From NCBI RefSeq assembly GCF_019649055.1, contig NW_026570221.1, positions 2,108,001 through 2,172,000 of the forward strand: DNA of 64,000 nucleotides. The letters run 5' to 3'. Of this stretch, positions 2,037-64,000 are shown piece by piece. Under the pieces are notes generated by a model. The model was not told the DNA's origin and made no database searches. It saw nothing but the letters and a program-made list of their open reading frames with translations. This stretch comes from Paramacrobiotus metropolitanus. Its lineage: Eukaryota; Tardigrada; Eutardigrada; Parachela; Macrobiotidae. The position numbers were made by a program, and so were the translations under genes. Within the stretch, counting starts at the first letter, position 1; each line of letters opens with the position of its first letter.

Positions 2037-5000
2037 TCAAACCATGATAGTCACATCACCTAACGGTGCCGTATTAAAAATCCACGGCAAAAAGCGGGCC
2101 ACCTTTGTATACAGTCCCCCGAGGCCGGTGGCACAACCGGTCCCACTAGACACAATCCCCGCTAGATACTGCGTCCCCGTCGTGGCATTATAGCAAAACA
2201 ACGGGCCCCCACTATCCCCCTGACACGAATCCTCCCCCACCACGCCCCCGGCACACAGGAACTGACTGAGATCCGTCCGCTCCCCGGTGTTCGACTCAAA
2301 GTACGAGCAGTTATCATAACTCGGCGGGAGGATGGTCTGGACGACGTACTTCAGCGGGATGTTGACCCGTGGGTTGGTGACGTTCCCGAATTCGGCGTCC
2401 ACCTCGCTGCCGAAGCCGGAGGTGATGCAGCGCTCCCCCGGCGGCGGCACGTGCCGGTTCAGGCACAGTTTACAGGCGCAAGCCCCGTGCACCCGGAAGT
2501 CGATGGGCTCCTCCAGGATCAGCAGGGCCACGTCGTTGTTGAAGGTGTCCAGGGTGAAGTTGGGATGGGGGATGGCCTGAGCCACGCGGTAACTCTGGTG
2601 GCAGCCGGCCACGACCTCCGGGAAGGGGTTGTCCCCGTCCACGGTGCTGTGCGTGATCACGCCGATGTCGACGAAAACGATGTTGGCCGAGTTGTTGAAG
2701 GCGGCCACGGTGGTGTCGATCAGGCAGTGGCTGGCGATGACGATCGTCCACATGCCCACGATACTGCCGCCGCAGCCGTAGGTGAAGCCGGTCGTCAGGT
2801 CGTAGATGGTTACCGCCACCTGTGGTATACAAAATAAAAGAAAAATCTCTGACATACCGTACAAATTGTTTTTCGAGTCACTTATGTACCGGATAGAATT
2901 CAAAATACAAAAAAAATATATGAATGGAATACGAATGGCTAAAAAATTACATGGCATTCTACCGTTTGGAAAAGAGTATCAGATTTTTCAAAAAATTTGA
3001 TATTTACAAAATACCCAGTTTAATTTTTTCCAGTCTAATTCTGATATTTGAATACTATTATTTATTTTACCATTACTGTGTTATTACAGATACAACATTT
3101 TAATTAGTGCGTGTTCAATGTTATTTCGCTCATTTTCCCCTTCTGTTAAATGATACGCAATATTCCTGTAGGTTTACGGTTTCCGGGTTTAAAATCTTGC
3201 TATCTGTAAACAGAAACCGTAAATTTTCAAGAGGTTGAAACGACTGGTTGTGTCTTTAAATATTAGTTTCGTACCTCATAATCCGAAGAACAGAAACCTT
3301 CTGTTAATGGTTTATGATTACGATTACGAGGTACTTACTTCAGTTACTTGTATACATGAAGTATGGAAAAAACCGGTAGAGTAGGGAAGCAAAACTTTTG
3401 AGGATCACCACATTACACCTGGTTCTGTCAAAGCTTAACTGGGAAACTAATTTCCGAATGTGATTCTATAAACAAATTTTTATCAAGATCGAGAAAGAAT
3501 TGTGCGGAACAGGAAGTAAAAAATTTGCTAAACTAAATAATTGACGTGGTTTAACTAGCTAGCTACGATAAAAGTGCAGTCCCTACGTACGAAATGCATC
3601 ACCGAAATCCATTCGAGAGTTCGCGCACGTTTATATGTACTCGTACCCCGCGCGGCGTTAATGAGGCGCTGATCTCTACGAATGACACATGACCCATGGC
3701 TATTTCCTACCTGTATCATTGCGTACAACTATCCCAAAATATATTTTGTAAATATCTTATGTATTTGTATATATTAATATATTTGCTGTTTGCATATTTA
3801 ATGTATATGTTTATGTATATTTTATCCAAAATTTAGGAGAACGGTATACGTTACTCACTTGCCAACACAAGGATCCGCTCCCGTTTGGCGCATCAAACCC
3901 GCCCACAATAGTCTGGGCAATTTGGACCCGGTTGGCGTTAGCGTGGCCTTTACGATGGCGTACCACACCCCGCTCCGCGCCCGGACGCAGTCGTACCCGG
4001 CGAAATGTCTGGCGTAGCTTCAGTTGTTCGTAGCTGATGTACACATTGGGATCACCGTTGGGAATACCGCACTGCTGCTCGCGCACCGTAGCACGCTGTG
4101 AATTGAGAAATTCCGGCGCGGCAGCCGGTGGAGAAGTGGGTGCGCCCGTTGGGGTGGCCGGTGTATAGGAAGAAACAGGCGACTGCTGTGTGGAATATGC
4201 GGACGGGTAGTTGTAATAAGAAGACGTGGTAGCTGACTGTTTGGCTGCTCCGCGCGCTGCTATAATGTTTGGAGTTACATTGCAAAACATTAAAATATTT
4301 AAGAGTTCACATTTAAAAGTACTGCAGTGTATCATGTAAATACGGTATATGAAGGCTATTAACTTGTTACTGCTACAGCTAGAGATCATCTCTGATAATA
4401 TTTTTTTTAATTTTAGTATGAACATAAAAGTCTCTAAGGCAACCGCCCATGGCAACATTACCGTTATCACACAATTATTCGTGTGGTTGATACACGTATT
4501 TACACAGTATTTACTACCTCATATCTATAGAACATATCTGTATTGTACACGCGGATAATACTAGCACAGATTAATAATTGTGCCGTAATTTCGCACGATT
4601 TCCGAAACGCATTCATAATTTTTACGCCTTTTTCGTCCGATTACATTTGAGAACATTTTAAAATTTATGTAGTGCTGAGCTTACTTACTGGCACCGCTGT
4701 CGCTGGAGCAACAGAAACTCCGTTCTTCCCCATCTGAACCGGCACTCGCTGTACAATCGGCTGATGTGGACACCTGTTGATCTGCACAACGGGTATCCAG
4801 CTGACTGAGCGGCACGCAGATTCCGGTGATATCGCTGTTCGCGGCATCCGCCGATCGGCATGTCCGTTCGATAACACCTTTCTGCGCAGTGAACGCTACA
4901 TTAGTCGGTGCCTGATCCGCGGTGGTGAACAATTCCGGGACGGTTTTAACACCCTGTTTGATGGGCATATGACGATGACGTATTACAAAACCGGAAACCA

Positions 5001-49334: not shown

Positions 49335-50276
49335 CTGCAAATAATTTAAGTCGATAGACTGGTTTTGCTTCATTCCTAGAGAAGTTACTGTAACTACATT
49401 TGGTTCCATTTGGTGCTTGGATGAGGTTTTTTAGGGCACACGCAACATAAAAAGTTTTGTAGCATTTGTGCTTTTGGCGCTGCTGTTGAAAATTTATCTG
49501 TTAAAAAAATACGATTTTTGAGCTTTCTAATGAACCTGTACACTTCAAAAACGGACCGAACCAAGGCGCAGAAAAAATTTCGAAGCTGCCATAAAGATTG
49601 GCATGTCACAAACCAGTCTATCACCTTAAGAATAGGATGCATTTGCATTTAAAAAAATTAGTTACATGGAAGCCATTAATTTTACGATAGTGGAAGATAT
49701 TCACAATTTATCGATAGTGGAAGACAAAACTAATGATTATGATTTCCGCAGACAAGAAGATAATGATGCGTTACGTTTTACGATTTACCGTAGTGTGAGC
49801 GCAGGCGTACATGCGTACACCCTCGCTTGGCAGTCTGTTGTGTTTTGCTGCACGCCCGCCTTACGCGTGGCGGAAGACATGTTGTTCTGCACGCACCCGC
49901 ACTGTGTGGCGGCTACGTGCGCATTTCTCACGCTTGCTGCAGTCAGCAATGCGAAGTTGTCCATGAGGAAATTCTATCGAATTTAGTCTGTTTTATAAAT
50001 TCCTAGCAATCACGCCGTTTCTCGCTTTCCGTAGCGTAGGCGCATTTATAGCATTGCTAGGCTTTTTGGTAGGCAGAATTCCGTCAATTCTGTTCCTACG
50101 CGTGAACCTTCATTGGGTCCACGCTTTCATGGTAGCAAGAGTCGTGTTTCTCCAGGATAATCTGAGAGTTTTCCCGTCCAATTGACGAGGTGTGGAAGAA
50201 GTTTCCGCGAGAAAGGGCTCGCGTACGGATCGGTGGCGAAGGAGCGTTTGGATCTCGACAGCAGATCAGCACCAGT

Positions 50277-50298
50277 GTGTCTCTACTGAGTAGAGCAC
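50277..50298. repeat. Leader palindrome A
   Basis: Core CTCTACTGAGTAGAG (50281-50295) flanked by GTG on the left and CAC on the right, so the stem continues past one unpaired T. Pairs with palindrome B as a variant with a changed outer stem. Confidence 0.85.
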
Positions 50299-50317
50299 GC
50301 TGTACTGACCTGACGCG

Positions 50318-50343
50318 ATCAAGGCTACTGAAGTAGCTTTGAT
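50318..50343. repeat. Long leader hairpin
   Basis: ATCAAGGCTAC faces GTAGCTTTGAT with one G-T pair and a TGAA loop: 11 paired positions, with a C-G pair at 50316/50345 beyond a G-T. It lies 20 bases after palindrome A. Confidence 0.8.
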
Positions 50344-50448
50344 TGGAGGGGCACAAGCGCCGAGAAAAGATCGCCGCAAGAGGCAGAAGCCCGAAGGGGG
50401 GCACGAGTGGGCAAGCCACTTTTGGCTGTCGGGTGTGGAAGTTTTCAG

Positions 50449-50474
50449 GTGCGTCTCTACTGAGTAGAGCGCAC
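50449..50474. repeat. Leader palindrome B
   Basis: The same core CTCTACTGAGTAGAG (50455-50469) as palindrome A, but the outer stem is GTGCG/CGCAC instead of GTG/CAC. Both sides differ together, so pairing is kept. Confidence 0.85.
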
Positions 50475-51056
50475 ACATTATACGCGCTCTCCCAAAAGGA
50501 GGTCGAGCGCCCCTGTCGTTGCTAACGTCAAGGCGCGACAGAAGACCCGCAGCCAGCAAGTCATTTGGTCGACGCACCGCTGCGTCCTGCTGATACGAAG
50601 CAGAAGGGGTTATCGGCTGGCCCAGGAGAAGTCAGCTAAATCGCTGGAGGATTGGAGGATTCGCGGAAGGCCGAGCGGGATCGATTTCTGGATCACGGAA
50701 ACGATCAGGTTAGATTTTCGTTTATTAATTTTACCATTGGTAGATAGGTAGAATCCTCAATTTTCATTCGTCGGTTCTGAGCTGAGCAGAAAAGTAGGCG
50801 GTACTTTTGCGCACGGCGCGCTAGCAAAAATTTTCGATTTTGGTCGTGACGTCACTCTGCCTTATAAATTGAAAAACAACGTTTCTGATTGGTCGACTAT
50901 TCGCACTGTGATTGGCGCAGTAGCGTAGCTAAAGTTAGCTAGGAAATCAGCCAATTAGAAGCTGAGATTTCGTAAGGAGGCGGAGTTTTTGCGCACGGCA
51001 CTCAAGATCGTGACGTAGCTAGCTAAGAAAATTTTCTGAACTGACTGACGAGAAGT

Positions 51057-51373
51057 TGACCTTTACCAGAAATTTTGACGAGAATGATGACCTTTAATAA
51101 AAGTTGAAAGCTGAATAAATAACGTTTATTCTGAGGAAATCTAAGTTGATTTCTCAATAAAATCGAAAAATATTCCAAGGTTAGACGTTCTAGACCGAAG
51201 TTGATAGTGACCTTTAAACAGAAAAAGTTCTGAAGGAAAAGTGACCTTTAACGTGACGGAGTAAGCTATTAGGCTGAAACAGTGGAAGTGACCTTTAGAA
51301 AAGACTTAGCTCTTTTGGAGGCAGAGTGACCTTTAATAAAGTTGAGCTGATACAGAAGAGAAGGTGACCTTTA
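51057..51373 (+). repeat. Seven TGACCTTTA words in the untranslated leader
   Basis: Exact copies start at 51057, 51088, 51208, 51242, 51289, 51327 and 51365, spaced 31-120 bases. The sequence between copies is not repeated. The reverse complement TAAAGGTCA contains the AGGTCA half-site of nuclear receptors. Confidence 0.95.
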
Positions 51374-51489
51374 GGACAGCAACTGTTTCTGTTTACGTGT
51401 AAAGGGGCTTACGTAGCTAAACTAACACACGTGTCAGAAACATTATTAGCATCGTCCAAGTTATCCGATCATCAACGGTAGCCAAAGAT

Positions 51490-53649
51490 ATGGACCAAGA
51501 CACAGACGGTAATGAACCGGTCTCATCGAGCAGTCAGAGAGAACGGTCTCAGGGGTTAGAAAACCCTTACGAACGGAAACTAAAGCCGTTCACACGGCCA
51601 GTGGAACATGAAAGAGCAACTCGAGCTCAGAAGACCTTTGGGAGGAAGGACACCAGAGGCTCAGAAGCCACATATCAAACGGCTCTGAGGGAAACCCAGA
51701 AGGAAAGCTCGAGTGACGGAAATGGAAAAGCTCCTGAGCGACATGTCGGAGATAACACGGTAGACCAGTCAAAGGTCACCGACGAGAGAATGGTTTCAGA
51801 TGGACAGAACAAAGATGACCTGAAGGCCGAGACCGGAGGAATGGCACGGTCGGCCGAAAAGGTCAAGGAGGAAAACGCGGATCAAGTTGAGAAGGGAAGT
51901 GACGAAGTCAGTCAAAAGGTCACCGAAGGTGGTGGCGCCGTCAGCAGCAACGAGCTGATTGACGAAGGAAAGGTCAAACAGGACGACCTTTCGGATAACT
52001 CATTGTTCTTACAAGAAGAGATGAAAGAGAATGGTACCAGCCCCATGTCAAGTGACAAGTTTTACACTGACGATGAGGACGAAACGACGGTTCAGATGTC
52101 CTTCCACACTGCAATGAAGCAAGCTGATTTGGCAGAGATGACCTTAAATGAAAAGCTAGAAGAGACCTTTGAGGGGACGGCGCCAGGAAGGACTGACGAA
52201 CGGGATCAAAGGTCACCATCACCAAAAACATCCGTAATGAATGGATTAAAGCAGCGTGTCAAGGAGCTGGAACAGCTACTTGACGAGAAGGAAGCGCAAG
52301 CTTTTGCCGCGATACGAGACCAACGCAATAAAACTATGAAGTCGAAGCCAGACTGTACGTGATGGAACAAGAAAAGGTCACGTTCGAAGACGAAGCACAA
52401 CAATGGAGAGTCAGATTCGAAGGTCAGAAAAAAGCTGCGGAAGATCTAAGGAAAATGGTCGAAGATCGAGACGCGGAAGGTATGCTCACCGCAGAAGACT
52501 ACGGGTTGTCCGAGGAAGCAGCTGAAAGGTCACGAGAAATAGCGGAACTGAAAAAGGAGCGTGACCTTTTACAGTCAAAGGTCAAGGAGGCCGAGAAGAA
52601 ACGCGATGAATCGCTGTCAAATGCGACAAAGTTCACCGGAAAGGTCACCAGCCTGACGGCTGATATCTCGAAACTGAAGGATGACCTTAAACTACGTGAA
52701 GAACTTGTCAACACGTTACAAACAGAATTAAAGAGAGAAAAACAAACAAACCGAAGCAGAGAGCCAGAGAGATCAAGCAGCAAAAAGGCTCCTTGAACTG
52801 GCGGAAAAGACGAAAACGGAATTCAAGCGACTCAATGATGAAGTCGAGAACCAAAAGAAAGAAGCAAAGAAGTGGTTGACCGTAGCACAACAGCGTGACG
52901 AACGGGTCACCGTGCTAGAGGTCGCAAATAGAGAAGGGCAGCAAGAGAATGAAAGACAAAAAGAAGAGATCGCCAAATTGAGCGATGAACTTGTCGAATT
53001 GGCCACTACAATAATGGAAAAGGATGATAAATTCAAGACAGTTGAAGAGGAATGCGAAGCGAGAGGAAGGACCCTCGCAGACAGAGCGGATCGTATCACA
53101 CGGTTGGAAGCAGAAGCTGAGATCCTAAAAGCAGCAAAAATGGATCTCGATAAGACTCTCGATAACCGAGCAAGTACAATCCTCGAGCAAATGAGAAAGG
53201 TCACCGAAGCAAACAACGATTATGAGAAGCTCAGGAAAGACGCAAACGAAACCGTAAAGCAGCTGCAGCAGGCAGTCAAACAAAGAGAGGAAGAAATTAA
53301 AGCTTTAAAACGGTCGGCAAAACAAAAGGAAGGAGAGCCAAAACAGCCGGAAAGGATCGAATCTCCACCCCCCGGATATGGCGAAGTCCACACCGTCGAA
53401 GGTAGCTTCCATTTCCAAGCTCCCTTAAAGACGGGGACTGGCCGAAGCGACGGCCGTGATGAAGATAAGGTCAAAGCTGAAAAGGTCACCGACGATACTG
53501 AGTTGGCGAAGGGGCACTCAGGACCGATCGGTGGGGTCAATCCTCGGCAACAAGAAACAGGACCGAGGAAACAATCGTCTACAAATCTGACCATCAGCCA
53601 GACAATCATGAAGATCCACGAGTTCGCCAAAACGAGCAGGAAAGGGTAG
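51490..53649 (+). CDS. Retrotransposon gag N-terminal coiled-coil region (frame-broken)
   Basis: Three open segments carry it: 51490-52362, 52359-52796 and 52876-53649, in two registers. At each border the Lys/Glu heptad pattern continues in the next register, so they are one original region cut by single-base indels near 52340, 52745 (an A-rich run) and 53630. The first third is hydrophilic and Ser/Glu/Lys-rich with the start MDQDTDGNEPVSS; the rest is long coiled coil (KELEQLLDEKEAQAF, EEIAKLSDELVELATTI). Such an extension before a Ty3 capsid is unusual and could drive multimerisation. Many codons read AAG-GTC-ACC (Lys-Val-Thr), part of the element-wide motif. Confidence 0.75.
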
Positions 53650-55553
53650 CTCGTGAAGAGGAGAGGCGAGAAAGAGAATACCGCGCGGAATACCACGCTG
53701 AAGCACAGCGACTCCGTCGCGAAGAACGGGAATTCAGAGGTTACATGAGAGCCATGGCCCGGAAATCCGCGTTGATCGACTACAACGGCAACCGAGAAGC
53801 TTTACTTGGTTGGATCCGTCAGGTCAAGGAGACTCAGAAGACGTATGACCTTTCGGATGCAGCAATGATGCTGGAAGTCGCCAACGCAGTCAAAGGGGAC
53901 GCGAAGGCATGGTTTGACGCGGAAAGAGAAATCGATGACGAAGAAGAGGCGGAAGAGTTAACCGTCGATGAATGGATGACAAAGTTCAAAGAACATTTTG
54001 GCGATCGTGACGAAGGGGTCAACGCCTTAAGGGAAGCTATGACAAGAAAGTTTGAGGCCGGCAAAGAAACGCTTGATCAATTCTATCAGGCGATCATGCG
54101 CTTCAAATCGAAACGGATCATTACAGAGAAGCAGGCCATCGGGTTCCTAATTCAAGGATGTAAGAACGACAGTGACCTTTATAAGGCACTCCGAGCACAG
54201 AAATTCCATAACCCAATGGATATCAAGGAATTCTTCCGCACCTGGTCGACTGGCGAAGAAAAGTATAAGGTCACGAGAGGCAACCGAGTCCAAGATGATT
54301 GCGTGATCATCCGATCGGGCCAGATCGAAGAAGTCGCGAATGGGCGACAGAACCAGTCGTGCTCGGCGCAGGCGCCAGGATACAATACAGAATTCCCGCC
54401 GTTAGGCACTCAAGAGATGACCTTTGGCAACGGTCGAAATGAAGGTCAGGTATCGTACGCGACGATCGCGGCGATCCAAACGGCCGTCCAAGAAGTAACC
54501 AAGCCTGCGATCGCGGCGATCCAAGCATCAGCTCAGCAAGCAGCAAGGCCGAAACAGAACCCACAAGGAAACGTGCAAAGAAATGCCCTGAATGGAGGGC
54601 TCGGTGGTCAAGGAATGGCTCAGGCGAACCCGGGCTTTGCTGGCCAGGGATTCAACGGTGGCGGAGGAAATCAAGGAAACTTCCGACCGAACCGTGGACA
54701 AGGAAATCAAGGACCACGATACGGGTCGCGAGTAGAGCGCCTGTTCACCATGATCGACGGATGGGTGGCCAATAACGCGCTGACATGCCAGAACTGCATG
54801 TACGGCAACCACTACACACAAGCGTGTTCGTTCGCGGGAACACCGTGGAATCAGAACCCCAACCGGGTCGTGTATGAAGAATGGTTGATGCTGCGTAACA
54901 ATCATGGCGGATGGCGCAACGCAATGGCAAACGGATATGTGCCACAATCACGCCAAGGCGGACGGTATGCTGGTCAAGGTGGCCAAGGGAACTTCGCCGG
55001 TCAAGGTGGCCAGGCCAACTACAACAATCAAGGAGGCCAGGGCAATTTTGGCGGCCAAGGGAATTTCGCTGGTCAAGGTGGCCAGTGGAACAACGGAGGT
55101 CAAGGCGGCCAGGATAACTTCGGAGGCCAAGGCAACTTCGCCGGTCAAGGTGGCCAAGGTGGAGGAAATGGCGGATATGGCCCGGTTAGAGGCGGCTTCC
55201 GAGGTAGAGGCAGAGGCCGCGGCGGCAATCGCGGAAATTACGGCGGTGGCCAATGGAATGGTGGTGGTCAAGGTGGCCAATGGAACGGTGCTGGTCAAGG
55301 AGGCCAGTGGAATAATGGTGGTCAAGGTGGCCAGAATTTTGCCGGTCAAGGTGGCCAGGGCAATTTCGCCGGTCAAGGTGGCCAGGGCGACTTCGGCGGG
55401 CAGCAAGGCGGCTTCGTCGGTGGGAACCAGAACGGTTTCGGTCAGCAAGGCGGAGGTTTTAACTTCGCCCCGGCGAATGGTGCCGGTCAGGCGCAAGGTG
55501 CGCCGGTTCAGGAATGGCCCAGGGAAACGTCCAAGGTCAGTAGGCGCCGGTGA
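53632..55553 (+). CDS. gag: Retrotransposon Gag: capsid, Gly/Gln-rich repeats and zinc knuckle
   Basis: The main open frame spans 53745-55553 and its register is already open from about 53632. Residues 1-160 from 53745 form a Ty3-type capsid helix bundle (LGWIRQVKETQKTY, AKAWFDAE, WMTKFKEHFGD, FYQAIMRFKSKRII, FLIQGCKND, EFFRTWSTGEEKY). A nucleocapsid part follows with one CX2CX4HX4C knuckle, CQNCMYGNHYTQAC, at 54786-54827. After it comes a long Gly/Gln/Asn region with repeats of GGQGNFAGQ and an RGG-like patch (RGRGRGRGGNRG), likely RNA-binding. The stop TGA (55551-55553) lies in the loop of a 9-bp hairpin. The last 650 bases overlap the protease frame in another register. Confidence 0.85.
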
Positions 55554-57945
55554 GCCTACTGATCGTCCGGAACCGAAACCACCGGATATAGAGGAGCAAG
55601 GTGCTCCGCTGCAGGCAAGGACCGCAGCGAGAAAGGGATGCTGCGAAAGTAACGCAAAGACCCGGAAAAGAAATCCGAGGATTCGAGAAAGTAACTCGAA
55701 ATCGAGCGAAGGGGCTCGTAAAGGTCAAGAGAAGGGTTTAAAAAGATTGCCGCAAGGACGGAAGAATTTGACCGAAAGGTCACCGCAGAAAGTAACTGCG
55801 GGAAGTCAAGAAAGTAACTTGACTCAACCGGGGCCGACCGAAAGGTCACCGCAGAAAGTAACTGCGGGGAACAGGGTTGACGGAAGGGCCTCAACTCTGC
55901 ATCCGGGACAGCAGAAAGTAACTGCAAATCAAGAAAGTCACGAAAGTAACGTGACGCTGCAAGGACAGCAGACCCAAAGGTCACCGCAGAAAGTAACTGC
56001 GAGCAAAGGTCACGAAAGTAACGTGACGCTGCAAGGACAGCAGACCCAAAGGTCACCGCGGAAAGCAACCGCGAGGAAGAGTGAAGCTACTCTGCGAAAG
56101 ACGCAAGCGGAAATCTCAAGCGAAGAGGATGATGAAACACATCACGCGAGATTCCGAAAGTTCGTCGAAAATACGTTTGAATTTGACGGAATGACCGTAA
56201 CCGTGCAACGAACGCACGAAGGCGGTCCAGATAGACCGAAATTCCTTGAGCAGATGGCAAAAGTATTTCAAGCAAGAGCTGCCGAGGAAGATCACAGAAG
56301 GGCCGTGACTGCGCAAGGAGCGCAAGAGACCGAAAGGTCACCTCAAGCGAGAGTTGAAGAAGTGAAAGGTCACGAGAGATTGCCAGTGCAGCAGACTCAA
56401 GAGTCACTGAAAGAGAAAGGTCACGGTGAAGTCGCCGATGAACCGAAAGGTCAAGAAAGTAACTTGACTCTGCGAATGGCGCAGCAAACAGTGAAACAGA
56501 GCGAAGGGGCACAGCAAGTCTCAGATGACTCTCTCGATGAGGCAAACACTCTACAACAGAAGATGGAGTGGCAAAAAGTCGCTTACAGGCCGAATGGACG
56601 GCACGGTATGTGGAAACCAGTTCCTCCGCCACAAAGGTCACCGCAAGATGTGAGAATCTCCAGAGAAGCTTACTGGGAAGAAAGAGAGAAACAAGACTGG
56701 CGGATGAGAAAGCATCTCGAGGAAACGGTTAAAGCTTCACAACCGAAAGTACAAGAGTACTGGGAAGAGAAAGTCCAATGCGACGAAAATAACCGTCAGT
56801 TTCGAGAGCGGATTGAGAAGGGTGAACTACCGCCTCAGTATGGCGAGAAAGTACCTTTACAAAGGTCACTAAATGGTGGATTTTTCATGTCAAGACCGGA
56901 AAGGTCACCGGACTTAGCGCAAACTCCGCAAAAGGAGAAGTCATATGACATGACAGAAGCAATCCGGAATGACAACGAAAGGTCACCGCCAAGAACTGAC
57001 GGATTGTCATCTCAAATCGATCCAACTCGCACGAATAACGAAATTGCGAAGAAAATTACCGATTGGATGAAAGAAAACGACCATAAGATGGTTGTGTACG
57101 AAAGGTCACCAGAGAAAAAGAATGAAGATGACGAGATGACCTTTGCGGATGAAATTACGCAAGAGATAATGGCAAAGTTGCAAGAAAAACCGTCCAAAGA
57201 TGTGCGCAATGAAAGGTCACAATACGAAGTTATTGCGCAAGTGATAAAAGGTCACGAGAACGCACAAGAGAAGGGTTTAATGTGCGAAGTGGCAAAGGTC
57301 ACGGGTAAAGAAAACGCTGCGAAGGAGCAAGCGAATATCTTACCGAAGTCAAAAAGGATCGAAAAGTTCTCAGATGTGCGACCCGACGTACCGAAACGGA
57401 TAGATCGTTGGAGCTCAAAAGGTCTGATAGAGAGCAAGCATGCTGCACCAATCCCAGTCAAGTGTCGAATAAGAGTCTTGAAACTCGAAGATGGAAACTT
57501 ACCGAAACGGATCGAAGCTTATACACATGAAGTCAAAATTGGAAATAAAAAGGTCATGGCAATGCTTGACACTGGCGCAGAGACGTCTTTGATTTGTCAA
57601 CAGTTCTGCGAGAGGAACGGCCTCCAGACTGTCAGACTACCACCGAAAAAGAAGGTGATGATCAAAGGGATCAGTGGAACGTCAGGCTTTGAAGTAACGC
57701 ACTACTGCGTAGCACCAGTGACCTTAAGAAGGAAAACCAGTCAACACTCATTCTACGTCAGACCAGCGTCAGACGACGTCCAAGTCCTACTGGGATTCGA
57801 CTTCCTCGCAAAGAAATTCGTCCTGATAGACGGACACGACGAGGAAGAAAGAGAAACTGAAGCTGAAGACGACGAGCCAAAATCATCCGCAAAAGTTAAT
57901 GCAGGAAAGGTCACCGAACTTCAACCAAGAAATAATTCGGGGTAA
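54904..57945 (+). CDS. Retrotransposon protease frame with long low-complexity leader
   Basis: Open for 1013 codons in a different register from gag. The part before 55553 is an antiparallel reading of the gag repeats (KVAK-type) and probably not the real N terminus. The middle (55640-57400) is Glu/Arg/Ser/Gln-rich with repeats ERSPQKVT, KGHESN and ERSP, and carries the hairpin array. The C-terminal 150 residues are a retropepsin: KVMAMLDTGAETSLIC with catalytic Asp-Thr-Gly at 57568-57576, then KKKVMIKGISGTSG and VQVLLGFDFLAK. The enzyme would cut the polyprotein. The amount of disordered sequence between capsid and protease (about 600 residues) is exceptional. Confidence 0.75.
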   Translation: MADGATQWQTDMCHNHAKADGMLVKVAKGTSPVKVARPTTTIKEARAILAAKGISLVKVASGTTEVKAARITSEAKATSPVKVAKVEEMADMARLEAASEVEAEAAAAIAEITAVANGMVVVKVANGTVLVKEASGIMVVKVARILPVKVARAISPVKVARATSAGSKAASSVGTRTVSVSKAEVLTSPRRMVPVRRKVRRFRNGPGKRPRSVGAGEPTDRPEPKPPDIEEQGAPLQARTAARKGCCESNAKTRKRNPRIRESNSKSSEGARKGQEKGLKRLPQGRKNLTERSPQKVTAGSQESNLTQPGPTERSPQKVTAGNRVDGRASTLHPGQQKVTANQESHESNVTLQGQQTQRSPQKVTASKGHESNVTLQGQQTQRSPRKATARKSEATLRKTQAEISSEEDDETHHARFRKFVENTFEFDGMTVTVQRTHEGGPDRPKFLEQMAKVFQARAAEEDHRRAVTAQGAQETERSPQARVEEVKGHERLPVQQTQESLKEKGHGEVADEPKGQESNLTLRMAQQTVKQSEGAQQVSDDSLDEANTLQQKMEWQKVAYRPNGRHGMWKPVPPPQRSPQDVRISREAYWEEREKQDWRMRKHLEETVKASQPKVQEYWEEKVQCDENNRQFRERIEKGELPPQYGEKVPLQRSLNGGFFMSRPERSPDLAQTPQKEKSYDMTEAIRNDNERSPPRTDGLSSQIDPTRTNNEIAKKITDWMKENDHKMVVYERSPEKKNEDDEMTFADEITQEIMAKLQEKPSKDVRNERSQYEVIAQVIKGHENAQEKGLMCEVAKVTGKENAAKEQANILPKSKRIEKFSDVRPDVPKRIDRWSSKGLIESKHAAPIPVKCRIRVLKLEDGNLPKRIEAYTHEVKIGNKKVMAMLDTGAETSLICQQFCERNGLQTVRLPPKKKVMIKGISGTSGFEVTHYCVAPVTLRRKTSQHSFYVRPASDDVQVLLGFDFLAKKFVLIDGHDEEERETEAEDDEPKSSAKVNAGKVTELQPRNNSG
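54955..55430 (+). repeat. Gly-rich tandem coding repeats
   Basis: About a dozen units of 27-36 bp built on GGTCAAGGTGGCCA and GGCAACTTCGCC, encoding GGQGNFAGQ-type peptides. The GGCC and GGTCAAGG words also read through in the overlapping protease register as KVA/KVAK repeats. Confidence 0.9.
55537..55562 (+). promoter_or_regulatory. Hairpin enclosing the gag stop codon
   Basis: TCAGTAGGC (55537-55545) pairs perfectly with GCCTACTGA (55554-55562), with an extra G-T pair outside. The 8-base loop GCCGGTGA contains the TGA stop of gag. It may affect termination or a switch to the protease frame; that role is inference. Confidence 0.7.
55642..56468 (+). repeat. Array of eleven hairpins with constant AAAGTAA loop and changing stems
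   Basis: Loop AAAGTAA (once AAAGCAA) is flanked by perfect complements at 55642-55656 (TGCG), 55682-55700 (TTCGAG), 55783-55801 (CCGCAG), 55804-55824 (AGTCAAG), 55849-55867 (CCGCAG), 55911-55925 (GCAG), 55937-55955 (GTCACG), 55985-56001 (CGCAG), 56009-56027 (GTCACG), 56057-56073 (CGCGG, loop AAAGCAA) and 56450-56468 (GTCAAG). The letters give the left arm. Every such heptamer in the region is in a hairpin. The loop is read as Glu-Ser-Asn in some copies and Lys-Val-Thr in others, so the protein does not explain it. Other small hairpins lie between them, for example GGAGC-AAGGT-GCTCC at 55593 and TGCGC-AAGGA-GCGCA at 56310. Confidence 0.95.
57203..57286 (+). repeat. Two larger hairpins in the protease leader
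   Basis: TGCGCAAT (57203-57210) pairs with ATTGCGCA (57232-57239); the 21-base loop carries GAAAGGTCAC. Just after, CGCACA (57261-57266) pairs with TGTGCG (57281-57286) around AGAGAAGGGTTTAA, a loop that recurs unpaired near 55729. Confidence 0.8.
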
Positions 57946-60311
57946 CGGCTATCCCAGTACCAGAGGCACAGGGATCGAAGGAAAATAAGCAAAATGAGAA
58001 TGTGAGAAATCTAATCCCAGTACCAGAGGCACAGGGATTAGAAAATGCTGGAAAAAGCAAAAGGTCACCGAAGTCTAAAGGAAATCAAAGGTCACCAACG
58101 ATGAAACAAATCAAGATAATGCAAGCAGAAGCACTGATTGCAAAGAAACAGTCGCTAGTGCCAGGAATGGAGTGGTCAGGCTACTCCCAGTACCAGAGGC
58201 ACTGGGCACGAGAATGGTTGGGCCCAGGACAGAGCCAGGACTGATGAACAGCGACGAAAGAGCACTATTCTCGGAAATACGAGATCAAGCCATAAAGCAA
58301 CTGGATGCAAGGAAAACGGAGCATGGTGCTCAACACACTTTCGAACCACGTGACAAAGCAAGAGGGCGGATGAAAGGTCGAGACACGCGCCTGCGCAAAG
58401 AGGTAGCAGAGAGTAGCCGTCGTCTTACTTCCGAACCACGCTCTGCAGATGAAGAAATCGAAGTCATCGAAATATCATCAGATAACAGCGTAATCGAAAT
58501 CGAAAAAGATGACGAATGGACAGATACCGATTCCGGAGAAGCGGATAAGCGAGTTATCGTCCGTCCTGAACCGAGACAACGGATGCCGGAAGGGAACAAT
58601 CGCGTCATTTCCCGCAAACCAAGAGAATGGACTGCGGAAGAGAGAGCAACCTCTTGCCATCACGATTGGCACGACAGCGATGACCTTTCGATAGCGCGAC
58701 CTCAAGAAAGATGTGCAAAATGCATGCAAGAAATGACACAAGATGACCTTTCGGAATGGCCGAAATGCAATGCAGCAATTGCGCGTCATAAAAGACAAGA
58801 AGAAATAGAGGTCAAGTCGATTATGAGAACACTTCCCATGCCGGAACTGTCAAAAGCAACTTACCTTTGGCAATGTTATCGAGAATGGTTATCGGTAGTT
58901 AAGAACTACATCATCTCCAGAGGGAAGTGGCTCCATCATTGGCAGCAAGAAGCGGACAACTTCATTCCCGAAAAGGCGGATAAAAGCGACCCGTGGTATA
59001 CAAACCCGATTACAAAGCTCGACAGAGAAAGGCGACGAGCAATGGAAGAGAACGAAATATGGGAGCAAGCGAGAGTTGACTTATTTTGGGAATTCAGAGT
59101 TAATTATCTATGGAAAGGTCAAGGACGAGCAATCATTTTCCCAATTGGACTCGGCACAGTAGTGTACGAATTATTTGACCTTTACCAGGCCTGCCTCAAA
59201 AAGGGAAGCTTACGAGAATGGAATAAACAATGGGGCAAAATCCTCGAAGAAGTACCGATATTCACAGGAGAAATTCCAGAATTAAAGGTCACGCGAAAAA
59301 GACGCGAACTTGGATTATTTGGCTATCCGAGAAAAAAGAAGGTGACCTTTGCACCAGATCCAGATGGAGTGGAGTATCCCGAAAGAGGCGGAGATACTTG
59401 GTGCATGTATGAGACGGTACCGAACAATGACTGGACTACAGAAGAACTGATGGCAAATTGCGTCTTTATCGGCGATAAGAGACCGAAAGGTCATGGCACA
59501 AGCGCTGAAAAAGAAAACGGCACAAGCGCCGAAGAAGAAAAGAACAAAGATAACGGCACAAGCGCCGAAGAAACCAAAGAAAAAGAACAAGAGGTCAGCA
59601 CAAGTGCTGCTCAAGAAAACGGCACAGGCGCCGAAGAAGAGGAACCAACGCACACGGCGTATGAGTTGGCTCAGATGATCAAGGAACTGAACCAGGCGTT
59701 TCGGGATAAGGAAAACGGAATCCCGGTAACAGAGGCAAAAAAGGCTCAAATGTCGCCGCAAGAGAAGAAAAGCAGCGTCGTTAGTGGCTTCACTACAAAG
59801 GTCACTCGGTAACGGTGAGGAAGGGCCACCAACCGAGAAGAACGAAAGGTCACTAAACGCGATGCTGGAAGAGGAGCCAGAAAGGTCAGTTCCGAAAGTT
59901 GACGAAAGGTCACCTGAAACTGGCGAGGAAGGACCGCCAGTTGGAAAAGCAAAAAGGTCACAGAATACCGCTCAAGCAGATGATAGCTCGGAAGACGATG
60001 AAAGGGATAGGTCACGAGCAAGGATTCGTGCAACACGAACAAATCCGAGGATAGCAGCACGAAACGGACGAAAGTCCAAGGAAACGGACAAACCTCTGCC
60101 CGAAAAACGAAAAGTGACAAAAACTTAGCGCTTCCAAGGATGAAAGCGATGACCTTTCAACAGAAAGTGAAGACGAAGGCGTCGATGAGCGACCAATCGA
60201 GAAAAGAAGCAAAGGTCAAGAGCTTGAAGCTAACCACAGCAGCGAATCCGACTCGGAATTCTCGAGCACGAGCGATAACTCGACCACTTCTGAAGATTCT
60301 GGAGTGAGTGA
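57946..60311 (+). CDS. Charged spacer between protease and RT, frame-broken, unknown function
   Basis: Open segments lie in different registers: 57946-58244, 58172-59812, 59784-60128 and about 60127-60462, each overlapping the next, so one region interrupted by indels or programmed shifts is likely. The 546-codon part contains a globular-looking core with Trp-rich helices (YLWQCYREWLSVVKNYI, KWLHHWQQEADNF, DLFWEFRVNYLW, LYQACLKKGSLREWNKQWG) and two CxxC/H pairs (CHHDW, RCAKCMQEM) that could bind zinc. It is followed by acidic repeats of GTSAEE. No family recognised. Nothing like it is standard between PR and RT in Ty3/gypsy elements. Confidence 0.6.
57951..58227 (+). repeat. Three copies of AGTACCAGAGGCAC in hairpins with different stems
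   Basis: Copy 1 has stem ATCCC/GGGAT (57951-57975). Copy 2 has CTAATCCC/GGGATTAG, 8 bp (58011-58041). Copy 3 folds as CCCAGT/ACTGGG (58186-58206), next to CTGGGC/GCCCAG (58202-58227). Loop AGTACCAGAGGCACA is identical in the first two. In one register the copies read I-P-V-P-E-A-Q-G, in another L-P-V-P-E-A-L-G. Confidence 0.85.
59494..59633 (+). repeat. Five ACAAGC-loop hairpins (GTSAEE repeats)
   Basis: Loop ACAAGC or a one-base variant sits between TGGC/GCTG (59494), CGGC/GCCG (59518), CGGC/GCCG (59554), CAGC/GCTG (59596) and CGGC/GCCG (59620). The CAGC/GCTG copy changes both arms together. Here the register is constant, so a repeated peptide (GTSAEE) is a partial alternative explanation. 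Confidence 0.75.
59814..59942 (+). repeat. Two hairpins with AGGAAGGRC loops
   Basis: GGTG-AGGAAGGGC-CACC at 59814-59830, with an outer CTCGGT/ACCGAG pairing beyond a small internal loop, and AACTGGCG-AGGAAGGAC-CGCCAGTT at 59918-59942 (8 bp perfect). Loops differ by one base while stems are unrelated. Confidence 0.85.
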
Positions 60312-63300
60312 CCTTTCAGATCAAGAAGATCTGCTGACCTCGACGAAGACGATGAAAAGAACGAACAACAAGAGAAAGAGATCATTGTTCGAAGAATTAA
60401 AGTGCAGAAAGCAAGAATCCCAGAAGGAGCGATCAAGGTTTACAGCGACCAACGAGTTAAGCTGAGACCAAACCTTGGCACACGCGTAAAGGTCAAGATG
60501 GGCGTTCATGTGCCACGGAATCAGAAGCTGATGTATACAGCAACTCCTCAAAAGGATAATGAAGTCCAACCGAGAACGGGAGTCACGGACCATAACGGCA
60601 CTCGATTCGAAATCATTATCGAAAACCGAAGCAAAAGCCGAAAGACCGTAAGGAAGGGCCAATTTCTCGGTTACGTAGAACATTACGAACACCTTGAGAA
60701 CGTAAAGGTCAATTCGGCTACCGTCGTGAAAAACATACTTGAAGATCCTGAAGTGGACGCAAAGACGAAAGAAGAACTGAATGATATCATTGAAAGATTA
60801 AAGTTAGGACCAGACCTAACTGAAGAACAGAAGAATGACGTGCGAAACGCATTTTGGGAGTTTTGGAAAGTTCTCCCCACGTCAAAGAAACCGTACGGCG
60901 ATGTCAAAGGGGTAACGCACACTATTGACACAGCCGATGCCAAACCGGTTAAATGCAATCCAGCAAGAACAAGTTGGAAAGGTCGTGAATTCATCACAAA
61001 GCACATCGAAGAGATGCTACAGCAAGATGTCATTGAACCATCCGATGCGGAATGGAGTTTTCCGGTCGTACTCGCCGCAAAGAAGAATGGCGACGGAACT
61101 ATGGGAACAAGATTCTGCGTCAATTACATTTTGCTGAACAAGCTGACGAAAAAGAACAACTATCCACTGCCGAACCCAGATGAACTGCTTGACGCGTGCG
61201 CGGGAAACAAGTACTACGGCAAGATGGACTTACAAAGTGGCTTCTGGCAGATCCCAATGGATCCAGCGTCGAAAGATAAGACAACTTTCGTCACGCAGGA
61301 CGGAATGTTCCGTTTCAAAAGAATGCCTTTTGGAGTCTGCAATGGACCTGCGACCTTTCAACTTTGTATGGATAAAGTCTTGTCGAACGCAAAGAGAATG
61401 GGATGCGTTTTCGGTTACATTGATGACGTGATCTTCGCAGGGAAGACCTGGGAGATCTTCATGCAGAACTTAAGGAATGTCCTTCAAAGTTTGGTCGACG
61501 CAGGCTTTACAATCAAGCCGACGAAATGCGAATTTGGCATGCGCGAAATGGGATTCTTGGGGCATATCCTAAGCGAGAATGGTATCAAAATGGATCCCGA
61601 AAAGGTCATGGCAGTTAATGGCCAAAAGAAACCGACAACTGAACGGCAGTTGAGGTCATTCCTCGGATTAGCGAACTATTACCGAAAGTTCATCCTTGGA
61701 TACGCGCAAAAGACGGCGCATCTCTACGAATTGCTAAGACACGACAAAAACATCAAAAGAGATTGGTCAGCAGTCCATGACCAAGAATTCAATGACCTTA
61801 AAGAAGCGCTGTGTAAGGATCCAGTACTGAAGAAGTTTGATCCGACAAAACCGACAGTGATCGAGTGTGACGCATCAAAGGAAGGGCTAGGTGCGATCTT
61901 GTCCCAAGATGGACATCCCATTGCATACGCAAGCCGCGTTTTGCACGGAGCGGAAAAGAATTACGGAGTAACAGAATGGGAATGCCTGGCGGTAGTTTTC
62001 GCCGTCAGAAAGTTCAAGTCGTACATCGACTACTCCGAATTCACAGTGAGAACGGATCACAAAGCTTTGACGAACCTCTTAAGATCGGAGTCGAACAAAT
62101 CATGTATGAATCCAAGATTGACAAGATGGGCATTGGCACTTCAAGGTCACCGATTCAAGATCGAATACAAGCCGGGCAAATACTGCGACAACGCAGATGC
62201 CCTTTCAAGAGCGCCAATTGAAGGTCCCACTTGCAACGAAGAAGAGTATGATGAAATCCCAAACTTCGAAGATTACAAGAACGAACTCAACAGAGAAGAA
62301 CCTCCGATTGAAGTTTGGCAACTTTTCGTACAATTAGCCGAAGAAAGGGAAGAACGGCTGAAAGCCGACATGAGAAGGGTTGTGTCGGAAGAAAAAGAAA
62401 GCGGAGACATGCGCTCGAGCATAAATGAAGCAGAGCGTAGTCGTCGTCTTACTTTCGAACCCCGCTCTGCTACCAAGATAAAGGTCAACAGAGTGAGAAA
62501 AGAAGCTTCCGAACGAAAAGATGGAAAGGTCACGAAATACGGTCAGAAAATGGTAGACCAGAATGACCTTCGCGAAGCAGAAATTCTCTCCGAATACATT
62601 CCGGAAGAGTGTCCCATCAGATTGCTGAGATTCTCAAAGAAAATCGAGAAAGGTCACAAGCCTCTTCCGAGATGCAAGGTCATCAAAGATTGGAATGAAC
62701 TCAGCACTGCAGTAGTCCGCATCGTCAACCTACAAGGAGACGAAGAAGAAGAAGATGATACGAATTTGCAGTTGCGGAATAAGCAGCTAAAAGATCCGCA
62801 CTTGGCAATGATCATCGATGAATTGGAGCACCTGCAAGACGCAGACAAAAGGTCAAAGTTTGAGACGCATTACCAGTTATGGAACGGCATACTGTATCGC
62901 GTCAAAGACCAGAAAGGAAGACTCGAAAGGACATATGTGGTACCGTTGCAAATGAGAAGGGCTATCATCCATGCATTGCATGATGAAAAAGCAGCAGGTC
63001 ATTTTGGCTTCGAAAAGACGTTGGCCGCGAACCGGCTCAGATATTACTGGGACCGTATGAGTACGGATGTCAAGAATTACATCCTCGCGTGCCAAGGATG
63101 CCAATTCATAAAGACGCCAAGAAAGTGTCCACCTGGAAAGCTCCAAGAGATCAAAGTCGGTCATCCATTCTTCAGAGTCTACGCGGATCTGAAAGGACCC
63201 CTACTTCCAACGAAGAAAAGAGGATACAAATACATTGCGGTCTTCATCGACCAGCTGACGAAGTATGTCATAGCGGAGCCAATGAAAACAGCTACTGCAA

Positions 63301-64000
63301 AGGAATTCGCAAAGATCTTTGTGAAGCATGTAATTCTGGTGCACGGAGCGCCACATATTCTCCATACGGATCGCGGAAGGCATTTCACCGCAGAAGTACT
63401 GAAAAAGGTCACCAACGTGTTCAAAATCAAACACACGTTTGGAACAGCATACCATCCTGAAGGTCAAGGACAGGTGGAAAGGCAGATGCAGACCATCAGT
63501 GATGGATTGTCGCAGTACCTGAAAGCGGGAAATGAAAGGAAGTTCAACAAGTATCTTCCTTACGTCATATCGGCAATGAACCGTGCAGTACATGCAACGA
63601 CGGGGTACTCAGCGTACTACATGCTTCACGGGAGAGAAATGACCATGCCAGAAGACGTAGTGACGAAGACGAACGTTCCTGACGACTACGGTGCACCAGA
63701 CGAATGGGTCGAAACCATGAAAAGGAACTTGACCTTTTCAGAAGAAGTGGCGAAGTGCAACATCAAAGATGCTTACGAAAAGCACGCGGAAATCTACAAC
63801 AAGAAGAAGTCAGAGCCGCAATTCAAAGTCGGAGATCGAGTCTTAATTAGACTCCCGAAAGATACAAAGCAAGGAAAGAAGGAAAACCAATCCGACTTCA
63901 AGAATAAATATGACAAAGTGTGGAAGATTCTCAGTTTTCCGAGACCGAACGAAGTCGAGGTCATCGAGCAAGATGCGGTGAAAGAACCGGACCTACGAGT
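60312..64000 (+). CDS. pol: Retrotransposon Pol: RT, RNase H and integrase (open to right edge)
   Basis: One frame is open from 60312 to the window end; the first ATG in it is 60498. RT spans about 60930-61500 with the catalytic YIDD at 61416-61427. RNase H lies at about 61850-62070 (ECDASKEGLGAIL, the Glu of TEWECLAV, RTDHKAL). After a charged linker, integrase has the H-H-C-C zinc fold at about 62970-63105 (HDEK, GHFG, CQGC). The catalytic triad is Asp at 63186-63188, Asp at 63369-63371 and Glu at 63477-63479, with exactly 35 residues between the last two. A GPY/F-like C-terminal module (FKVGDRVLIRLP) follows. All catalytic residues are intact, so the copy is young or recently active, despite the upstream frame breaks. 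RNase H comes before integrase, as in Ty3/gypsy. Confidence 0.93.

Follow-up and report, generated by a model that had tools for sequence, protein, structure and literature searches.

A constant-loop hairpin array between gag and protease of a giant Ty3/gypsy-type retrotransposon in the tardigrade Paramacrobiotus metropolitanus

To our knowledge, it is poorly known how long terminal repeat (LTR) retrotransposons choose their RNA outside yeast and the vertebrate retroviruses. The retroviral packaging signal psi is found chiefly in the 5' leader, and the stems of the packaging signals of RNA viruses and hepatitis B virus (HBV) vary in sequence. Hairpins are also known from within coding sequences, where the Rickettsia palindromic elements and the mitochondrial byp elements are inserted mobile units. 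Here, we describe an array of short hairpins in a stretch of 64,000 nucleotides of the Paramacrobiotus metropolitanus genome (RefSeq assembly GCF_019649055.1, contig NW_026570221.1, positions 2,108,001 to 2,172,000 of the forward strand), which is called the window in the following. The array is part of a giant Ty3/gypsy-type LTR retrotransposon and is located directly 3' of the gag stop codon in the pol frame, which is +1 relative to gag. No published account of a retrotransposon with an array of this kind was found with broad terms in the open-access literature, a scope that leaves subscription papers mostly outside, and the word 'hairpin' is absent from the main text of the tardigrade transposon paper PMC11071193.

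The packaging signals of HBV are stem-loops at dispersed positions whose loops carry a motif (PMC7612645). The array resembles such dispersed signals of HBV and RNA viruses in having multiple short stem-loops with the motif in the loop (PMC7612645, PMC7793301). Unlike these, it belongs to an animal LTR retrotransposon and is local rather than spread over the genome, its whole seven-nucleotide loop is fixed while the loop identity differs among sister families, and it is known from sequence alone. Gag of mouse mammary tumour virus (MMTV) requires single-stranded purines for selective packaging, as reported in PMC8096270. Purine-rich single-stranded loops on stems are a feature that the array shares with the psi of this virus, as would be Gag as the partner, which we propose below; unlike psi, it comprises eleven hairpins with one loop between gag and protease. 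The LTRs, the zinc knuckle of Gag, and the order of protease, reverse transcriptase (RT), RNase H, and integrase are as in other Ty3/gypsy LTR retrotransposons, from which the element differs by its length of 24.8 kb, by extra open frames before gag and after integrase, and by the hairpin array itself. Perfect stems and multi-base compensation are also found in RNA hairpins made by template switching (PMC8794818), but a constant loop on unrelated stems would not be expected from template switching. In contrast to the Rickettsia palindromic and byp elements, the array hairpins are homologous across families and their loops differ in place.

The array contains ten AAAGTAA words and one AAAGCAA word, which are all found on the + strand between 55646 and 56456. 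As claimed by an earlier reading of this DNA from the letters alone (the sequence-only reading), all eleven are enclosed by perfect inverted repeats, with stems of 4, 6, 6, 7, 6, 4, 6, 5, 6, 5, and 6 bp in order (Table 1), compared to stems of just 0 or 1 bp at the 37 AAAG[TC]AA words found elsewhere in the window, 23 of them on the + and 14 on the - strand. The stems are indeed perfect, but the eleven cases cannot be counted as independent, because a 72-bp tandem duplication makes up part of the array and the stems belong to six types. Over 55640-56080, the predicted structure is largely a row of separate hairpins with -154.9 kcal/mol, compared to 100 dinucleotide shuffles with -111.7 kcal/mol (standard deviation 5.5), which corresponds to z = -7.8. 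Purines make up 72-86% of loops that were picked by hand among the recurrent ones, compared to 65% in the region. Rfam gave no match in the window at gathering score.

The sequence-only reading would have been refuted if these inverted-repeat words were in excess across the genome without their loop, but stem-pattern searches of the genome did not reveal such an excess. The pattern TTCGAG-N7-CTCGAA is found at 36 places, of which 29 contain AAAGTAA or a one-base variant and seven contain other loops, while the reversed-pattern control is found at three. GTCACG-N7-CGTGAC occurs at 60 places (control 21), and among the 50 matches listed 43 have AAAGTAA or a one-base variant and seven have other loops. 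The unrelated stem CGGCAG-N7-CTGCCG was found 15 times and never with AAAGTAA.

The element is not alone in the genome. A search with gag revealed at least 150 matches (150 of the 476 candidates were scored, and all matched) in three tiers of identity, namely the window family T1 (at least 76%), T2 (about 55-65%), and T3 (about 51-58%). We compared 71 loci, 36 from T1, 22 from T2, 12 from T3, and the unplaced L065. At least three locus pairs overlap (L032/L037, L068/L075, L069/L076), which slightly inflates the occurrence counts but not the counts of distinct sequences. T2 and T3 carry the same array architecture with different loops, which are AATGGTA, AAACAGA, AACAG, and TATAAGGAT/TATATGGAT in T2 and AATGGTA, TAATAAGAT/TCAAAAGAT, and GAAAAGGAA in T3. 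The window stretch 55974-56058 is homologous to a T2 stretch with 74% identity in a local alignment. Counting only occurrences with intact flanking stem words, the site CACCGCAG...CTGCG contains AAAGTAA in 79 of 86 cases in T1, but AATGGTA in 43 of 50 in T2 and in two of two in T3. The next hairpin has AAAGTAA on GTCACG/CGTGAC in T1 (26/30) and TGACGGTAGCG on TGTCG/CGACA in T2 (18/20). At the site of hairpin 11, also called H2, which has a GTCAAG or GTCGAG stem, AAAGTAA is found in 29 of 30 T1 and AAACAGA in 17 of 21 T2 occurrences. Thus, T1 has nearly one and the same loop at three sites that carry different loops in T2. The constancy of the loop therefore applies nearly throughout the window family, but the sister families have mostly other loops on the homologous hairpins. 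The gag of T2 is closer to that of T3 (about 60-71%) than the gag of T1 is, and the agreement of T2 and T3 in their loops therefore gives no polarity of the older state.

Concerning the coding sequence, the loop is read in two registers of the pol frame, as AAA GTA or AAA GCA (K-V, K-A) in five of the eleven hairpins and as GAA AGT AAC (E-S-N) in the other six, in agreement with the sequence-only reading. The third register, which would contain an in-frame TAA, is absent from the array. Synonymous-codon shuffles, which keep the peptide, were compared by counting hairpins with stems of at least 5 bp (300 shuffles for the window). The stretch 55600-56110 contains 13 hairpins, compared to a mean of 3.5 and a maximum of nine in the shuffles, and 56111-56500 contains six compared to 2.3 (maximum seven). 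There is no excess on the protease side (8 versus 6.8) and in the integrase (9 versus 8.7), and gag shows a slight one (15 versus 9.4), but the number is raised in the RT/RNase H stretch as well (18 versus 8.6, maximum 19). The array regions of all 35 loci that have the gag-stop anchor plus an open frame of at least 810 nucleotides, which come from all three families, beat all of 100 synonymous shuffles at 5 bp, and 21 of the 35 loci do so at 6 bp, although these loci represent 33 elements (L032/L037 and L069/L076 are the same element each) and the copies are related and not independent. Thus, more hairpins are present than the encoded peptide requires.

The covariation of the stems was analysed by loop classes and by single homologous hairpins. 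For the classes, occurrences were chosen by the loop word alone, the flanks were compared afterwards, and the 3' arms were re-dealt 2000 times. For the nine-nucleotide loops (class C), the AAAG[TC]AA loops, and the AATGGTA-like loops (class B), 59 anchored loci were used and 12 were skipped. The 32 distinct flank pairs of class C have 4.00 of six possible Watson-Crick pairs compared to 2.78 after re-dealing (maximum 3.38), and pair 4 of this class is found in all four pair types (19 CG, 5 GC, 5 TA, 1 AT, 2 other). The AAAG[TC]AA class has 3.14 pairs compared to 1.96 (maximum 2.50), and class B has 2.18 compared to 1.48 (maximum 1.94). The ACCAGAGGC hairpin (class D) does not show covariation (4.42 versus 4.31) and was left out as evidence. 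Of the homologous hairpins, the block H1 to H3 was matched by a profile search in 70 of 72 entries, which include the window piece duplicating L009. The 11 distinct H1 stems of T2 and T3 are paired in 62 of 66 cells, and none of 2000 shuffles was as good. They include CACGGT/GCCGTG, CATGGC/GCCATG, CACGAC/GTCGTG, AACGAC/GTCGTT, AACGAT/ATCGTT, and GATGAT/ATCGTC. In the sister families 143 of 150 H1 cells are paired, compared to 25-82 with slid partners. Five changes of H1 affect both sides in a single reconstruction by parsimony, for which a tree of 23 copies was rooted at its midpoint, and the change at pair 5 leads to a different residue on either side (Gly/Asp and Ala/Ile). Thus, the stems covary as had been claimed, with compensatory changes between families (H1, class C), but none were seen within the window family.

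The best reading of these data is a multivalent RNA recognition array, in which the loop contacts a protein and the stem presents it, with Gag as the likeliest reader, for packaging. We give it a probability of roughly 0.4. An RNA recognition array with a fixed loop and a stem for presentation had already been suggested by the sequence-only reading and fits best because the stems are compensated between families, because one loop is found on unrelated stems and in two frames, and because shuffles fail to reproduce the hairpins, but the loop is fixed in one family only. The array would be present as short hairpins within the genomic RNA of the retrotransposon. Compensatory changes keep the stems paired between families, as seen for one homologous hairpin and one repeated-hairpin class, and one exposed loop per array is kept on unrelated stems, as seen for AAAGUAA. 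Selection probably acts on the RNA to keep both pairing and loop. The loop would be the protein contact and the protein presumably Gag, with the stem presenting the loop and the protein reading it at many sites together. The zinc-knuckle and RGG/GGQ-rich Gag of the element would read the loop, and would collect the full-length RNA of its own element for packaging. The array is carried only by RNA that extends into pol, because it follows the gag stop. Template switching may supply the variation of the stems. The reader of each family would recognise its own loop, which is consistent with the different loops on homologous hairpins in the sister families. The loop could even be a kind of family password, with Gag or another element protein of each family reading only its own loop, but this narrower proposal is rather doubtful.

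Several observations weigh against an RNA recognition array. The re-dealing control ignores the kinship of the copies. In the sister families, H2 is weaker than H1, its pairing being reached by 35 of 2000 shuffles, and H3 is uninformative (968 of 2000) despite the presence of CTGCG/CGCAG and CTGCA/TGCAG. In T1, H1 is unpaired (18 of 36 cells), H2 does not show covariation (all 2000 shuffles reach the observed pairing), and divergent copies break their stems on one side only. The sequence-only reading had named copies that keep AAAGTAA on unpaired stems as evidence against it, and these one-sided breaks in divergent copies are in part such cases. One-sided breaks are as expected for dead copies, and because of them the stems can be said to stay paired between families but not within T1. 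Among the T1 breaks A.C (8) is not rarer than G.U (4), and the ratio of G.U to A.C over the whole region does not have a consistent sign (73:101 in T1, 40:23 in T2, 24:36 in T3). In addition, the opposite strand of the array folds equally well (z = -7.7), and it is therefore only the orientation and the G.U pairs seen in H1 and in class C that suggest RNA rather than single-stranded DNA. In general, support for the structure is good across families, but not within the window family.

The same RNA array could be read by a host RNA-binding protein instead, for export, stability, localisation, or escape from silencing. All structural evidence would fit such a reader equally, and Pfam searches did not detect any domain besides the protease in the open reading frame (ORF) of the array. 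However, a host factor would be common to the sister families, and yet the loops at homologous sites differ, which makes a host reader unlikely. It is quite unlikely that mutation alone generates the hairpins, with template switching or fold-back in reverse transcription or replication copying one arm to the other and no selection involved, so that perfect stems and seemingly compensatory changes would result from a single step. The life cycle of retroelements passes through single-stranded cDNA, the copies within the family do not show signs of stem selection, and the excess in the RT/RNase H stretch would be accommodated. Such a mechanism has also been proposed for RNA genes (PMC8794818). 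However, it does not account for one seven-nucleotide loop on six stem types or for the concentration of the hairpins in one linker, given that the protease side and the integrase do not show an excess, and the G.U states in H1 are not explained either.

Further, the hairpins might slow ribosomes past the gag stop and, together with a hairpin at the stop codon, help to set the ratio of Gag to Gag-Pol. The gag stop is located in the loop of a hairpin that has a perfect form with 10-11 bp in L045, in L049, and in 13 out of 20 further sister loci (L050-L069). This hairpin with pol in the +1 frame, recurring across the sister families, is a possible candidate for a recoding signal, and the array follows at once. 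However, the array begins about 90 and ends about 915 nucleotides past the gag stop. Compared to known cases, such distances are large for a frameshift stimulator. A role in translation would also not need a constant loop, and we regard it as very unlikely. An origin of the hairpins as a side effect of peptide repeats, for example SPQKVTA, is hardly credible: in sister copies, repeats such as QNGTA and TAIWMP are found several times in a single frame, and the shuffled window array still holds 3.5 of its 13 hairpins on average, but the two reading frames of the loop and the loss of most hairpins in peptide-preserving shuffles led us to reject this origin for the window family, as the sequence-only reading had argued. 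No more believable is its other proposal of a micro-hairpin copying itself into palindromic sites, which would account for several copies on different stems, because GAAAGTAAC is not over-represented in the genome (881+793 compared to 841+844 for the reversed word) and the three homologous sites compared hold, in the sister family, hairpins with other loops instead of empty palindromes.

The retrotransposon extends 10.6 kb beyond the end of the window, as given by the located LTR pair, and its membership in Ty3/gypsy is based on the paired TG...CA LTRs and the order of the pol domains. The 15-base flanks of the LTRs do not show a target-site duplication. The sequence right after the 5' LTR starts with TGG, which we take to be primer-site-like, and is followed by Lys/Glu-rich frames, gag, the array, the protease, a further ORF, RT, RNase H, and integrase. 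The gag ORF did not match any Pfam domain, but a zinc knuckle C-X2-C-X4-H-X4-C can be read from the sequence at 54786-54827. With the array protein, a single database match at E <= 0.001 was obtained among 7565 candidates, the P. metropolitanus LOC129600515, which is 100% identical to element copy L051 across 537 residues. The H3 hairpin (Table 1) is found in sister loci as CTGCG-AACAG-CGCAG, CTGCG-AAAAG-TGCAG, and CTGCA-AAAAG-TGCAG.

Table 1. Array hairpins and further features of the element and its surroundings (window coordinates unless stated otherwise).
Feature	Position	Strand	Remark
Hairpin 1: TGCG-AAAGTAA-CGCA	55642..55656	+	
Hairpin 2: TTCGAG-AAAGTAA-CTCGAA	55682..55700	+	
Hairpin 3: CCGCAG-AAAGTAA-CTGCGG	55783..55801	+	
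Hairpin 4: AGTCAAG-AAAGTAA-CTTGACT	55804..55824	+	
Hairpin 5: CCGCAG-AAAGTAA-CTGCGG	55849..55867	+	
Hairpin 6: GCAG-AAAGTAA-CTGC	55911..55925	+	
Hairpin 7: GTCACG-AAAGTAA-CGTGAC	55937..55955	+	
Hairpin 8: CGCAG-AAAGTAA-CTGCG	55985..56001	+	Sister-family homologue CGCAG-AATGGTA-CTGCG
Hairpin 9: GTCACG-AAAGTAA-CGTGAC	56009..56027	+	Sister-family homologue TGTCG-TGACGGTAGCG-CGACA
Hairpin 10: CGCGG-AAAGCAA-CCGCG	56057..56073	+	
Hairpin 11 (H2): GTCAAG-AAAGTAA-CTTGAC	56450..56468	+	Sister-family homologue GTCAAG-AAACAGA-CTTGAC
Hairpin H3: CTGCG-AATGG-CGCAG	56470..56484	+	
Gag-stop hairpin, 11 pairs with one G.U	55535..55564	+	Gag stop TGA (55551-55553) inside 8-nucleotide loop
5' LTR, TG...CA, 336 bp	49794..50129	+	Direct repeat of 3' LTR, 96.8% identity
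3' LTR	G000:C1:2182289-2182626 (window scale 74289-74626)		Outside window; partner of 5' LTR
gag ORF	53745..55553	+	Zinc knuckle, then GGQ/RGG-rich tail
Retroviral-type aspartic protease domain	57529..57810	+	PF13975, E 5.2e-10; ORF shared with array
RT, RNase H, integrase	61089..63458	+	PF00078, PF17917, PF17919, PF17921, PF00665; Ty3/gypsy order
Trypsin-like serine protease exon of the host	2037-2978	-	DSCQGDSGGPL, read from the translation

The element contains further repeated words and hairpins. In 50130-64000 and in L080 (G000:C1:2172001-2176500), the stretch past the integrase, AAAGGTCA is present in 50 copies where 0.8 are expected, and TGACCTTT, its reverse complement, in 19 copies where 0.1 are expected. 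Seven TGACCTTT and no AAAGGTCA are found in the leader (50130-51489), and in the pol ORF AAAGGTCA is present in all three codon phases (6, 11, and 3). The excess could reflect RNA pairing between leader and body or a DNA-binding site, of which the gypsy insulator is an example. L080 also encodes an open frame of 949 amino acids (L080:871-3720) with repeats of the MPNQM type, as judged by eye. Outside the array, a repeated imperfect hairpin with GCAGAGC...GCTCTGC-like arms and the common inner stretch TACTTYCGAACC was spotted by eye at 58406-58446, 62430-62470, and L080:104-144, 362-408, and 467-507. Some sister loci (L052, L053, L063) have three near-identical perfect copies of TCCCAGT-ACCAGAGGC-ACTGGGA between protease and RT, at 57950-58215. 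Tandem GGCACAAGCGCC units are found at 59495-59640, one copy being AGCACAAGTGCT, and a similar word is present in the leader at 50350.

The three related families in the genome of P. metropolitanus, which has at least 150 matches to gag, offer a natural comparison of homologous hairpins with different loops. If the password proposal were true, the RNAs of related elements in one nucleus would be kept separate, and all hairpins of an array would change their loop code together while the stems drift by compensation. If Gag reads the loop, these families would offer a view of how packaging specificity evolves. In addition, the array suggests that RNA structure can largely shape a protein-coding linker.

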